Below are positions 47,322-51,444 of a stretch of 64,000 bases of DNA, piece after piece; the first letter of the stretch is position 1, and each line of letters begins with the position of its first letter. Source of the stretch: Actinospica robiniae DSM 44927 (GTDB taxonomy: Bacteria > Actinomycetota > Actinomycetes > Streptomycetales > Catenulisporaceae); contig NZ_KI632511.1 in the NCBI RefSeq assembly GCF_000504285.1, forward strand, positions 5,438,154 to 5,502,153, given 5' to 3'. The notes under the pieces are model-generated. The model saw nothing but the letters and a program-made list of their open reading frames with translations, was not told the origin of the DNA and did not search any database. The position numbers and the translations under genes were made by a program.

Positions 47322-47351
47322 TCTGCTCTCAGCAGATCTGCCCACAGCAGA
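47322..47351. promoter_or_regulatory. Double palindromic operator upstream of the clpP-like gene
   Basis: Two 15-bp palindromes lie head to tail: TCTGCTCTCAGCAGA (47322-47336) and TCTGCCCACAGCAGA (47337-47351), 42-71 bp before the start codon. The same half-site TCTGCT/AGCAGA recurs upstream of the STAND gene at 51362. Confidence 0.72.
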
Positions 47352-47392
47352 AAAGCCCGCGCATACCACTCCGCGGCAGTCAGACTTGAGTC

Positions 47393-47986
47393 ATGACTCA
47401 CTTCACTTTCGACGACGAACTCGCGCATCAGCTGTTCAACCAGCGGATCGTCTTCCTCGGCCGCGAGATCGACGACGGGCTGGCCGAGCGCGTCTGCGCT
47501 CAACTTCTCGTCCTCTCGGCGCAGGACCCGCGCGCGGACATCAGCATGTTCATCAACAGTGTCGGCGGCTCGGTCACCGCCGGCCTGGCGGTCTACGACA
47601 CCATGCAGTTGATCCCCAACGACCTCGCCACCATCGTCACCGGGCTCGCGGCGGGCATGGGCCAACTGCTCCTCACCGCGGGGACGGCCGGCAAGCGCTC
47701 CGCCCTGACCAACGCTCGCGTGCTGATGCACCAGCCCGCAGCAGGTGTCGGCGGAACCGCGGCCGACATCGCGACCCGCGCCAAGAGCCACGAACACGCG
47801 AAATCGACGGTCCGCAGGATCATCGTCGAGCACACCGGCCAGCCCGAAGCGGCAATCGAACGCGACAGCGAGCGCGACCGCTGGTTCACAGCCGAACAGG
47901 CGCGCGAGTACCGCTTAGTCGACCGCGTCGTGACGGCGCTGAAGGACATCCGGTCGCCCGAGCCGTCCCGAAGGGTGGGCCTGTGA
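47393..47986 (+). CDS. ClpP-family protein lacking the catalytic serine
   Basis: A 197-residue ClpP homologue. The fold motifs are present: FINSVGGSVTAGLAVYDTM, His113 in VLMHQPAAG and Asp162 in RDRWFTAEQAREYRLVD. The catalytic serine motif, usually GxAASMGxxLL, reads GLAAGMGQLLL, so Gly88 occupies the nucleophile position. The subunit cannot be a conventional serine protease. It may form mixed rings with active ClpP subunits, or act as a scaffold. No pro-peptide extension is apparent. A PopR-like regulator is encoded convergently downstream. Confidence 0.88.
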   Translation: MTHFTFDDELAHQLFNQRIVFLGREIDDGLAERVCAQLLVLSAQDPRADISMFINSVGGSVTAGLAVYDTMQLIPNDLATIVTGLAAGMGQLLLTAGTAGKRSALTNARVLMHQPAAGVGGTAADIATRAKSHEHAKSTVRRIIVEHTGQPEAAIERDSERDRWFTAEQAREYRLVDRVVTALKDIRSPEPSRRVGL

Positions 47987-48047
47987 CGAAGCGACCGGAT
48001 GGCGTGCACACCCGCCAGAGGCGGTTAGGTGTGCGGGGCGCGATCGG

Positions 48048-48608
48048 CTAGGCAGCCAAGCAGAGTGAGTCCCTGCCTTGGAGCGCCATCGCAGCGGCCG
48101 TACTTGTCAAAGCGGCCGTACCTGTCAAAGCGACAGTGCTTGCCACAGCGACCGTACTTGCCACAGCGACAGTGCTTGTCTCAGCCCGCGAGTACTGCGG
48201 GACGCCGACCACAAGCGCTGCGGCAGCTGCCGCGGCACGCTCGTACTCGACCAGCCGCACCTGCACTCTCACCAGCAACTCCGTCATGCTGATGCCGAGA
48301 GCCCGCGTCGCCGCCGCGAGCATCTCGGACGACGCCTCTTTACGTCCGCGCTCGATTTCCGAGAGGTACGGCATCGAGATCCGAGCCACGTCCGCGACAT
48401 CCTGAAGGGTGCGATGCCTGGTCTGACGGACCTCGCGCAGCACTTCGCCGACGACGTCGCGCCACAGCGGCTCACGAGAAGCGCCGCGGCTGCGGCGCTC
48501 GCCCTCGGGGGTGACGGCAAGGTCGGCAGGTGGCGCGGCGGCTGCAACTACCGCAAGGGGGACGGCGCTGGGGCATGCTTCGGGGGGCCCGCTGTTGGGA
48601 TTGGGCAT
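48048..48608 (-). CDS. XRE-family regulator, PopR/ClgR-like, with C-terminal LAA
   Basis: A 186-residue regulator. After a Pro/Ala-rich head comes the helix-turn-helix core EVRQTRHRTLQDVADVARIS and YLSEIERGRKEASSEMLAAA, close to the ClgR/PopR group that controls clp genes in Streptomyces. The C-terminal 50 residues contain a repetitive Ser/Thr/Val/Ala stretch and end LCLAA. In PopR and ClgR the terminal Ala residues make the protein a Clp substrate. I chose the ATG at 48608 (AAGGAGG 6 nt upstream); a -10 TACGCT lies about 55 bp upstream. Confidence 0.82.
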   Translation of the reverse strand: MPNPNSGPPEACPSAVPLAVVAAAAPPADLAVTPEGERRSRGASREPLWRDVVGEVLREVRQTRHRTLQDVADVARISMPYLSEIERGRKEASSEMLAAATRALGISMTELLVRVQVRLVEYERAAAAAAALVVGVPQYSRAETSTVAVASTVAVASTVALTGTAALTSTAAAMALQGRDSLCLAA

Positions 48609-48709
48609 CGTGACCTCCTTGGCACCGACTCCGCTTTCGGCCTCATCGGCCATGAAACTCAGCGTAGATCGCGACCGGCTCTTGGGGAGGGCGCACGGCT
48701 TGATCTCTC

Positions 48710-48724
48710 TCTGCTGTCAGCGAA
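48710..48724. promoter_or_regulatory. Degenerate copy of the TCTGCT/AGCAGA operator
   Basis: TCTGCTGTCAGCGAA matches TCTGCT-N3-AGCAGA at 13 of 15 positions and lies about 100 bp upstream of the PopR-like start, just past the 3' end of the STAND gene. Confidence 0.4.
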
Positions 48725-48763
48725 CAACGCCGGCAGCGATCCGCCGGCTCTCAACGCCCAGCG

Positions 48764-51340
48764 TCAGCGGAGGCCGCCGGAGCCGGCTTGGGCGAGGTCG
48801 GCGCGGACTTCGTCGGCTACGGGGTCGGAGACGGACTCGTACAGTTCCAGCGATTGCTGCCAGAGGGGCAGCGCGATGTCGACCGCGCCGGCGTTGTAGT
48901 GGGCTTTGGCGAGGCTTTGCAGCGCCAGGGCCTGGCCGGGTACGTCGCCGAGTTCGCGGCTGAGGGTGAGCGAGCGCTTGAGGTAACCGATGGCTGCTTG
49001 CTGGTCCTGCAGCTGGATGTACACGTCGCCCAGGTTGTTCAACGTCGTCACGGTCAGCTGGCGGTTTCCGAGTTCCTCGACGATCGAGAGTGCTCGGTGG
49101 AGGTACGGCTCGGCTTCGGCGGGGCGGCGGGAGCCTACGTAGATGCAGCCGATGTTCAGGCAGCTCATGCCGACGCCGAGACGATCTCCCAGCTCCTCGC
49201 GGATGCGGGTGGCGCGCTCGAGGCAGCGCATCCCCTCTTCCGGGTCGCCGAGGCGGTGGTATGCGCCGCCCATGTTGTTCAGCGCGATCGCCTGGCCGGT
49301 CAGGTCGTCGAGCTCGATGCGGATCTCGAGAGAGCGCTCGAAGCAGTTCAGCGCCTTGCGGTCGGATTCCTCCCAGTAGAAGTACACGAAGCCGAGGTTG
49401 TTGTGCATCCACGCTTCGCCGACGCGGTCGGCTGCTTCCGCTGCGGCGGCCAGGCCGGTCTGGTGGGTGACCGTCCAGTCGGCGAGGTGGCGGCGCAGGT
49501 TGTAGAAGCCGAGCAGGGCGGCGGCGAGCTTCCAAGCGTTCTCGCGGCAGCCGTGGTCGGCGGCCGACTGGACTGCGGCGCTGAGGTTGGCGCGCTCCGC
49601 GTCGCACCAGGCCAGGGCCTGCTCGTGCACGCCGAACTCGATCGGCGGGCAGGACCACGGCCGCGGGTCGACGGGGACGGGCCTGGCTTGCGGCGCCAGC
49701 CAGGCGTTCGCGTTGGCGGCGGTGGCCACGTACCAGCCGGTCAGCCGAGCTACGGCGATTTTGCGGACGGCCTCGTCCTCGTCGCGGCGGACTTGCTCGG
49801 CGGCGTAGAGGCGGACCAGGTCGTGCATGCGGTAGCGGTCAGGGGTGGGAGATTCGAGAAGGTGGCCGTCGACGAGGGTTTCCAGCACCTTTTCCGCGCG
49901 CCTCGCCGAGACGCCGAACAGTGCGGCTGCTGCCGGCAACGAGATGTCGGGGCCGGTCGCCAGGCCGAGGAGGCGGAACGCGCGGGCGGCCGACGGGACG
50001 GCGTCGCTCTCGGTCTTCGCCAACGCGGCGTAGCTGACCTGGAAACTGGCACGCGCGGCCAGATCGCCGATCTCCAGCTCATCGAGCCTTCTGCGCTTGT
50101 CGCGGAGGCGGTGGGCGAGGGTCGAGACGCGCCAGTTCGCCCGCGCGGCGAGGCGTGCGCCGGCGATGCGCAGTGCCAGCGGGATTCCGCCGCAGGCTCG
50201 CAGCAGCTCTCCGGTCGCTTCGGGCTCGGCGGCGAGCCTTGACGCGCCGGCGAGTTGGGCCAGCAGCGTCCACGCCTCGTCGTCGGGCAGGGATTCGAGG
50301 CCCAGCTTGTACGCGCCCGGGAGTTCGGCCATGCGATTGCGGCTGGTGACGAGCACGGCGCAGGTGTTGGCGGCCGGTAGCAGGGGGCGGATCTGCTCGA
50401 CGTCGCGGGCGTTGTCCAACAGCAGCAGCATGCGGGAGCGGCTCAGGAGGCTGCGAAACAATGCCGCGCGCTCGTCGAGGCGGGGCGGGATCGTGGCCGA
50501 GTCCGCGCCGAGCACGCGCAGCCACTCTTCGAGCACGTCTTCGGGCGTGCGGGCTTGGGAATCGCAGGCGCCGAGGAGGTCGACGTAGAGCTGTCCGTCC
50601 GGGAACTCGGCCGCGACGAGGTGCGCGACGTGCACGGCGAGCGTGGTCTTGCCGAGGCCGCCGCCTCCGGTGACGGCCGCGATCGGAAGTTGGCCCGGGT
50701 CGCCCGATCCCGGCGTGAGGGCGGCGCGGATGCGAGTGATCTGTTCGAGCCGGCCGGTGAAATCGCTCGTGGTGGGCGGCAGTTGCGCTATGCGGGCGGC
50801 TATCGGGGCCGCGCCGGCAAAGGGATTCTGACCGAACCGGGTAGCGGCGGCAGGGCTCGGCGAAGCCGGAACAGCCTTCGACGATAGAGAACCTGTGAGG
50901 ATTCCGGTACGAGCACCGCCGCGCGCGATCGTCTGAGCAGGGTCGGCGTCTCCGTCGCGGTCGTCGTCCCCGGCGCCAGAAGCGGTAGCGGTGAGGGTGG
51001 CGGCACCGTCGAGCGCCATGGCCTCGACCTCTGCCGACGCGTCGGCGACGGCGGCGTCGTCTCCGCCGAGGCCCTGAGCAGCGTGGGCCAGCTCGAGCAG
51101 CGTCATCAGTGGACTGACATCGACGTCGTAGCGCGTGGCGAGTGACGCCAGGGCGTCCGGCGTGATCAGGCGCTTGCCGTTGAGCCAGCGTTCCCATGAC
51201 GCGCGGCTGTAGTGGGTCTGCGCCCCGAGCTGGGTGAGCGTGAGGCCTCGGGCGTCCTTGAGCGCGCGCAGTTCCTGCGCCAACCGTCGTGCGGCCGGCC
51301 CGATTCCCTCCGGCAACTGTGACCCACTGGTGCCCACCAT
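48764..51340 (-). CDS. XRE-NB-ARC-TPR regulator (STAND ATPase)
   Basis: An 858-residue signal-transduction ATPase. Residues about 18-80 are an XRE helix-turn-helix (GLTLTQLGAQTHYSRASWERWL). A 110-residue acidic linker follows, then an NB-ARC module with Walker A VTGGGGLGKTTLA (about residue 225), Walker B MLLLLDNARD and RNBS/GLPL-like GGIPLALRIAGARL. The C-terminal 250 residues are TPR repeats (LNNMGGAYHRLGDPEEGM; LNNLGDVYIQLQDQQAAI). This architecture is common among Streptomyces STAND regulators of development or secondary metabolism. Its promoter carries the palindrome shared with the clpP-like gene. Confidence 0.92.
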   Translation of the reverse strand: MVGTSGSQLPEGIGPAARRLAQELRALKDARGLTLTQLGAQTHYSRASWERWLNGKRLITPDALASLATRYDVDVSPLMTLLELAHAAQGLGGDDAAVADASAEVEAMALDGAATLTATASGAGDDDRDGDADPAQTIARGGARTGILTGSLSSKAVPASPSPAAATRFGQNPFAGAAPIAARIAQLPPTTSDFTGRLEQITRIRAALTPGSGDPGQLPIAAVTGGGGLGKTTLAVHVAHLVAAEFPDGQLYVDLLGACDSQARTPEDVLEEWLRVLGADSATIPPRLDERAALFRSLLSRSRMLLLLDNARDVEQIRPLLPAANTCAVLVTSRNRMAELPGAYKLGLESLPDDEAWTLLAQLAGASRLAAEPEATGELLRACGGIPLALRIAGARLAARANWRVSTLAHRLRDKRRRLDELEIGDLAARASFQVSYAALAKTESDAVPSAARAFRLLGLATGPDISLPAAAALFGVSARRAEKVLETLVDGHLLESPTPDRYRMHDLVRLYAAEQVRRDEDEAVRKIAVARLTGWYVATAANANAWLAPQARPVPVDPRPWSCPPIEFGVHEQALAWCDAERANLSAAVQSAADHGCRENAWKLAAALLGFYNLRRHLADWTVTHQTGLAAAAEAADRVGEAWMHNNLGFVYFYWEESDRKALNCFERSLEIRIELDDLTGQAIALNNMGGAYHRLGDPEEGMRCLERATRIREELGDRLGVGMSCLNIGCIYVGSRRPAEAEPYLHRALSIVEELGNRQLTVTTLNNLGDVYIQLQDQQAAIGYLKRSLTLSRELGDVPGQALALQSLAKAHYNAGAVDIALPLWQQSLELYESVSDPVADEVRADLAQAGSGGLR

Positions 51341-51361
51341 GACCTCAAGCCCTTCAGCGAA

Positions 51362-51386
51362 GTCTGCTCAGCAGACATCTGCAGAT
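51362..51386. promoter_or_regulatory. Double palindromic operator upstream of the STAND gene
   Basis: GTCTGCTCAGCAGAC (51362-51376) is a perfect palindrome with 7-bp arms, followed directly by ATCTGCAGAT (51377-51386), also perfect. The layout parallels the double site upstream of the clpP-like gene. Confidence 0.72.
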
Positions 51387-51444
51387 CGGCTCGCCGAGAA
51401 TAACACAGGGCGCGACGCTGGTATCCACGGATTGTAATGCTCCC

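Follow-up and report, generated by a model that had tools for sequence, protein, structure and literature searches.

The genome of Actinospica robiniae DSM 44927 (9.92 Mb, one contig) was analyzed in a stretch of 64 kb, referred to below as the window, containing a cluster of three genes in the order clpP3-like (+), popR (−), and STAND (−), with one previously noted site before each gene. The popR gene is convergent to clpP3 and lies ~60 bp behind it; the STAND gene is next to popR in all three Actinospica genomes, including those of the closest relatives, A. durhamensis CSCA 57 and A. acidithermotolerans MGRD01-02. The features of the locus are as follows.

47322–47336, + strand: distal PopR box TCTGCTCTCAGCAGA, read directly; fits the published operator consensus (available text of PMC9775585)
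47337–47351, + strand: proximal PopR box TCTGCCCACAGCAGA, abutting the distal box without a gap and ending 29 nt before the likely −10
47381–47386, + strand: likely −10 of clpP3, CAGACT, 6 nt before the ATG, predicted from a three-species promoter alignment
47393–47986, + strand: clpP3-like gene; Gly88 replaces the catalytic Ser (codon 47654–47656, GGC); no clpP4 behind it
48048–48653, − strand: popR, XRE regulator, ClgR paralog, C-terminus SLCLAA
48661–48666, − strand: likely −10 of popR, TACGCT, 7 nt before the ATG, predicted from the alignment
48710–48724, − strand: single PopR-type box TTCGCTGACAGCAGA, identified by matrix score and kept in 3/3 Actinospica genomes
48764–51340, − strand: STAND gene; XRE HTH, NB-ARC, and TPR; AfsR-like without the SARP domain
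51363–51375, − strand: 13-bp palindrome, 1-base center, within the leader of the STAND gene; distinct from a PopR box and not conserved
51372–51385, − strand: conserved STAND-promoter element TCTGCAGATGTCTG, at ~+5 to +18 of the predicted transcript, in three Actinospica genomes
51397–51402, − strand: likely −10 for STAND transcription, TATTCT, kept in three species

The window PopR is an XRE HTH protein and a paralog of ClgR; its score of 88.6 stays below the ClgR equivalog cut-off (170), and its nearest structures are those of ClgR (5woq, 3f51). Like its C-terminus, those of the PopR proteins of all 15 relatives among those listed end in LAA or LVA. The STAND protein shares the NB-ARC and TPR region with AfsR-type regulators (NCBIfam AfsR, 494 bits), but an XRE HTH replaces the SARP domain, and the score is far below the AfsR cut-off of 1430. 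The search for defence families with PADLOC yielded nothing beyond generic TPR and HTH-type matches. Literature searches on Actinospica ClpP, PopR/ClgR sites, and inactive ClpP paralogs, in a collection that excludes most subscription journals, brought up no paper on the locus.

The PopR regulator of S. lividans activates the clpP3 operon via TCTGCC-3N-GGCGAATCTGCC-3N-GGCAGA, as given in the available text of a review (PMC9775585). The site before the Actinospica clpP3 consists of two 15-mers with 3-base centers, arranged head to tail exactly as the earlier note had described, and it fits the pattern TCTGCY-3N-RGCRRA / TCTGCY-3N-RGCAGA, which has 24 defined positions, with zero mismatches. Exact matches to TCTGCTN{1,3}AGCAGA occur twice in the window, with 0.01 expected. 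For scoring, a PopR matrix was built from 25 clpP3 promoters, 19 Streptomyces-like and 6 Catenulispora-like, with no Actinospica sequences. It was derived from 29 prepared non-Actinospica loci, four of which (L157, L159, L160, L161) were left out as clpP was absent from the stretch; the six Catenulispora-like promoters are from those of the 10 such genomes with clpP3 in the stretch examined. The segment 47322–47351 scores 37.6 bits on one strand and 36.9 on the other, whereas the runner-up 30-mer in the 64 kb scores 8.7.

Allowing up to three mismatches, the own genome contains one exact place and one 3-mismatch match, compared with none for the control. The exact double operator is found in 39 of 147 genomes of the order, at a single place in each, and the reversed control in none. 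All 30 of these 39 places that were examined lie 42–220 bp before clpP3, counted up to where the protein alignment begins; in the window the operator ends 41 bp upstream of the clpP3 ATG. The 29-nt spacing between the proximal box and the −10 also occurs in Streptomyces clpP3 promoters. The likely −10 is 6 nt before the ATG, so the clpP3 mRNA is probably leaderless. The clpP3 promoter of A. acidithermotolerans, in which a single box is left, counts against assignment of the site to PopR. The sequence, position, and neighborhood of the site, the C-terminal LAA of PopR, and the uniqueness of the double site strongly support control of clpP3 by a PopR-like regulator, with 47322–47351 as its operator.

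The single site at 48710 is likewise real (TCTGCTGTCAGCGAA, 16.2 bits). It is the third strongest PopR-type box in the window and scores 16.2–16.6 bits across the three Actinospica genomes; 250-nt stretches drawn at random from the window (n = 1919) gave best scores of at most 12.6 bits, with the 95th percentile at 7.2. In five of six Catenulispora-like loci scored, the popR box is a perfect palindrome of at least 20 bits, and an exact 15-mer is found beside popR in 6/10 Catenulispora-like genomes. The popR promoters of Streptomyces carry mostly weak boxes. Based on these comparisons, autoregulation of PopR through box 48710 is a well-supported prediction. The regulon of the paralogous regulator ClgR is defined by sites (GTTCGC-5N-GCG) with the same half-site geometry as for PopR. 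In the Actinospica popR box, one of the two halves looks like the ClgR half-site GTTCGC, and a similar likeness is seen in GGCGAA, the inner half of the distal box in Streptomyces. Exact GTTCGC-5N-GCG was found in none of the three clpP1P2 loci examined, and thus a parallel ClgR circuit is not seen here.

The STAND promoter is organized differently. The motif was said to occur again at 51362–51386, and the exact pattern is indeed present; however, its center is one base, not three, and it scores −1.0 bits. The layout comprises the 13-mer TCTGCTCAGCAGA (51363–51375, 1-base center), followed by CA and then by TCTGCAGA, which has no center. The best PopR-box scores in the STAND promoters of the three Actinospica genomes are −1.0, −1.0, and −3.9 bits. 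A single mismatch interrupts the palindrome in A. durhamensis (TCTGCCGAGCAGA), and A. acidithermotolerans lacks it altogether. Genome-wide, the exact 3-base form is enriched (6 places versus 1 for the reversed control pattern), whereas the 1-base form with at most one mismatch is at chance level (6 places versus 6 for the control), its exact form being unique. What the three STAND promoters do have in common is GTGTTATTCT followed by ATCTGCAGAYGTCTG. The string TCTGCAGAYGTCTG, just downstream of the −10, occurs once per Actinospica genome, each time in the STAND promoter, and once among the other 57 genomes searched. A simple sigma-70 scan did not report the STAND promoter, so that its −10 is placed by conservation alone. 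The element begins ~5 nt past the predicted transcription start, where a repressor would sit; the clpP3 boxes, in contrast, occupy an activator position.

The earlier note had ascribed both promoters to one regulator, either the PopR-like protein or the STAND protein itself, because of their same double-site layout. That layout is not shared; the spacer of 1–3 bases in the noted pattern masks the distinction between 3-base and 1-base centers. A single regulator for all three promoters was rejected on the grounds of differing spacing, matrix score, and conservation. The proposal of a PopR-like regulator holds for clpP3 and popR, both of which PopR probably controls, judging from the sites, but not for the STAND gene: joint control is not supported, because the STAND promoters are without a PopR box, the palindrome is unconserved, and the element is found past the −10 instead of at the activator position of clpP3. 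One could suppose that PopR tolerates a 1-base center, binds the STAND site as well, and, since the site is downstream of the −10, represses the gene. Such binding would agree with the perfect half-sites in the window, with the extended half-site TGTCTGCT, known from the Catenulispora popR and included in GATGTCTGCT, and with the constant adjacency of the STAND gene to popR. However, all 25 training operators match the 3-base pattern at 20 or more of 24 positions, in a search with fixed spacing, and the mismatched or lost palindrome in the sister species and the chance frequency of the 1-base form also argue against it; we regard this explanation as improbable.

The converse proposal, in which the HTH of the STAND protein regulates through all three sites, takes its appeal from the XRE domain of this protein and its place in the cluster. 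It is extremely unlikely, as none of the 28 non-Actinospica genomes examined that have the double operator before clpP3 shows a STAND match there, and full-length relatives outside the genus are few and at most 46% identical. The STAND protein is a plausible regulator at its own promoter only. An RNA hairpin formed by the leader palindrome, which folds in both the window and A. durhamensis, was also considered, but its z-scores are only −1.75 and −1.66, it does not form in A. acidithermotolerans (z = −0.35), and this candidate was rejected as weak and unconserved, leaving it very improbable. In the preferred reading, the STAND gene forms a unit of its own, and the conserved element at its transcription start most likely serves as operator for the STAND XRE domain. 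Autorepression is preferred because the protein has an XRE domain of its own; we propose it tentatively, as a possibility somewhat short of probable. The TCTGC core that the element shares with PopR half-sites counts against a separate regulator.

Among STAND relatives outside the genus, 29 loci were collected, most of which have only the HTH in common. A palindrome TGAGAC-N10-GTCTCA is found upstream in 14 of the 21 such loci scanned and has no clear match to the Actinospica element. This palindrome is conserved ~135–180 nt before the match for proteins of Kitasatospora and Streptacidiphilus that share the HTH THYSRASWERWLNGKR (L095–L117), and it is a candidate self-operator of these proteins.

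In Streptomyces, according to the available text of two papers, the ClgR paralog PopR undergoes degradation by ClpP1P2, and it turns on clpP3clpP4 only upon ClpP1P2 failure (PMC9765437, PMC12607617). The same switch is expected here, since PopR has the LAA end and a ClgR-like HTH, and the genome retains both ClpP1 and ClpP2. PopR would bind the two abutting boxes, activating clpP3 from a position immediately upstream of its −35 region, and would also occupy the single box in front of popR. Following the Streptomyces model, the housekeeping protease ClpP1P2 would recognize the C-terminal LAA and degrade PopR, which would therefore fail to accumulate under normal conditions; upon ClpP1P2 failure PopR would accumulate and turn on clpP3 and popR. 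The locus resembles that of S. lividans in the two-box operator with clpP3 downstream, the convergent popR, and an XRE activator paralogous to ClgR with a C-terminal LAA. It differs in the absence of clpP4, the Ser to Gly replacement in ClpP3, the clear box before popR as well, and the presence of a STAND gene beside popR. Since ClpP3 has no nucleophile and ClpP4 is missing, formation of an active ClpP3P4 backup protease is not expected. We consider this reading as a whole, with a PopR operator, a switch of clpP3 and popR, a separate STAND unit, and no active ClpP3P4, to be quite probable.

The window genome and that of A. acidithermotolerans have three ClpP genes each and no clpP4 behind clpP3, and A. 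durhamensis has four. The nucleophile codon of ClpP3 is Gly (GGC) in exactly the two former species and AGC in A. durhamensis; the losses of the serine and of clpP4 coincide in two species. The window ClpP3 has Gly at residue 88 and retains His113, and in A. acidithermotolerans the His region is lost too. Both Ser and His are kept in all 43 genomes with a second ClpP behind clpP3 (42 outside the genus and A. durhamensis; 58 loci, 13 genomes read twice). Constraint on the window ClpP3 persists: relative to A. durhamensis, dN/dS is 0.25 for ClpP3, 0.23 for PopR, 0.16 for STAND, and 0.07 for the control ClpP2 (170 codons), although the ratio averages both branches and hence does not prove a function of the inactive ClpP3. 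It has also evolved faster than its A. durhamensis sister, with 22–27 versus 7–10 unique changes relative to four Streptomyces outgroups.

As a ClpP-like subunit without the catalytic serine, the window ClpP3 resembles ClpR, non-catalytic ClpP paralogs of chloroplasts and cyanobacteria. Unlike ClpR, it keeps His and the region of the Asp, and its incorporation into a ring is putative. The R subunits of chloroplast ClpP are termed non-catalytic in the available text of PMC6508832. A speculative and rather unlikely scenario is that the Actinospica PopR switch was repurposed from a backup protease to a non-catalytic ClpP subunit. If so, a drop in ClpP1P2 activity would lead PopR to induce the dead ClpP3, which would join or replace subunits of the ClpP1P2 ring and alter its activity or choice of substrates, as a stress-induced bacterial counterpart of ClpR. 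The PopR operator itself is known biology, extended here to a new genus. The value of the locus is in the contrast between its PopR operator, which is intact and uniquely specific, and a product no longer able to be an ordinary protease, a natural case for asking whether an induced inactive ClpP subunit is functional or a relic.

The locus also raises the question of whether PopR has gained other targets. No sites beyond the three had been noticed, and this is true for the window; in the genome, however, the exact single 15-mer occurs at five other loci with a strength equal to that of the operator boxes. Only the 30-base double site is unique, and a single box is therefore insufficient to define the regulon. 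At L002 (exact) and L017 (one mismatch), positions 1501–1555, a box lies 28 nt before TATCTT, a geometry close to that of clpP3; no long ORF follows directly, and then comes a gene on the opposite strand. The L002 box is present in A. durhamensis too. Short transcripts are possible at these two loci, whose boxes may be further PopR targets or sites of a related regulator. Scans of 7 and 5 loci revealed no tRNA, tmRNA, or Rfam RNA following the remaining boxes of the genome. At L007:1492–1524, L005:1495–1521, and L071:155–185, exact 15-mers are embedded in longer palindromes, such as GATTCTGCTATCAGCAGAATC, which may belong to another regulator. In A. durhamensis, the region behind the conserved box (L071:470–1900) contains a frame that, judged by eye, resembles a mutator-type transposase.
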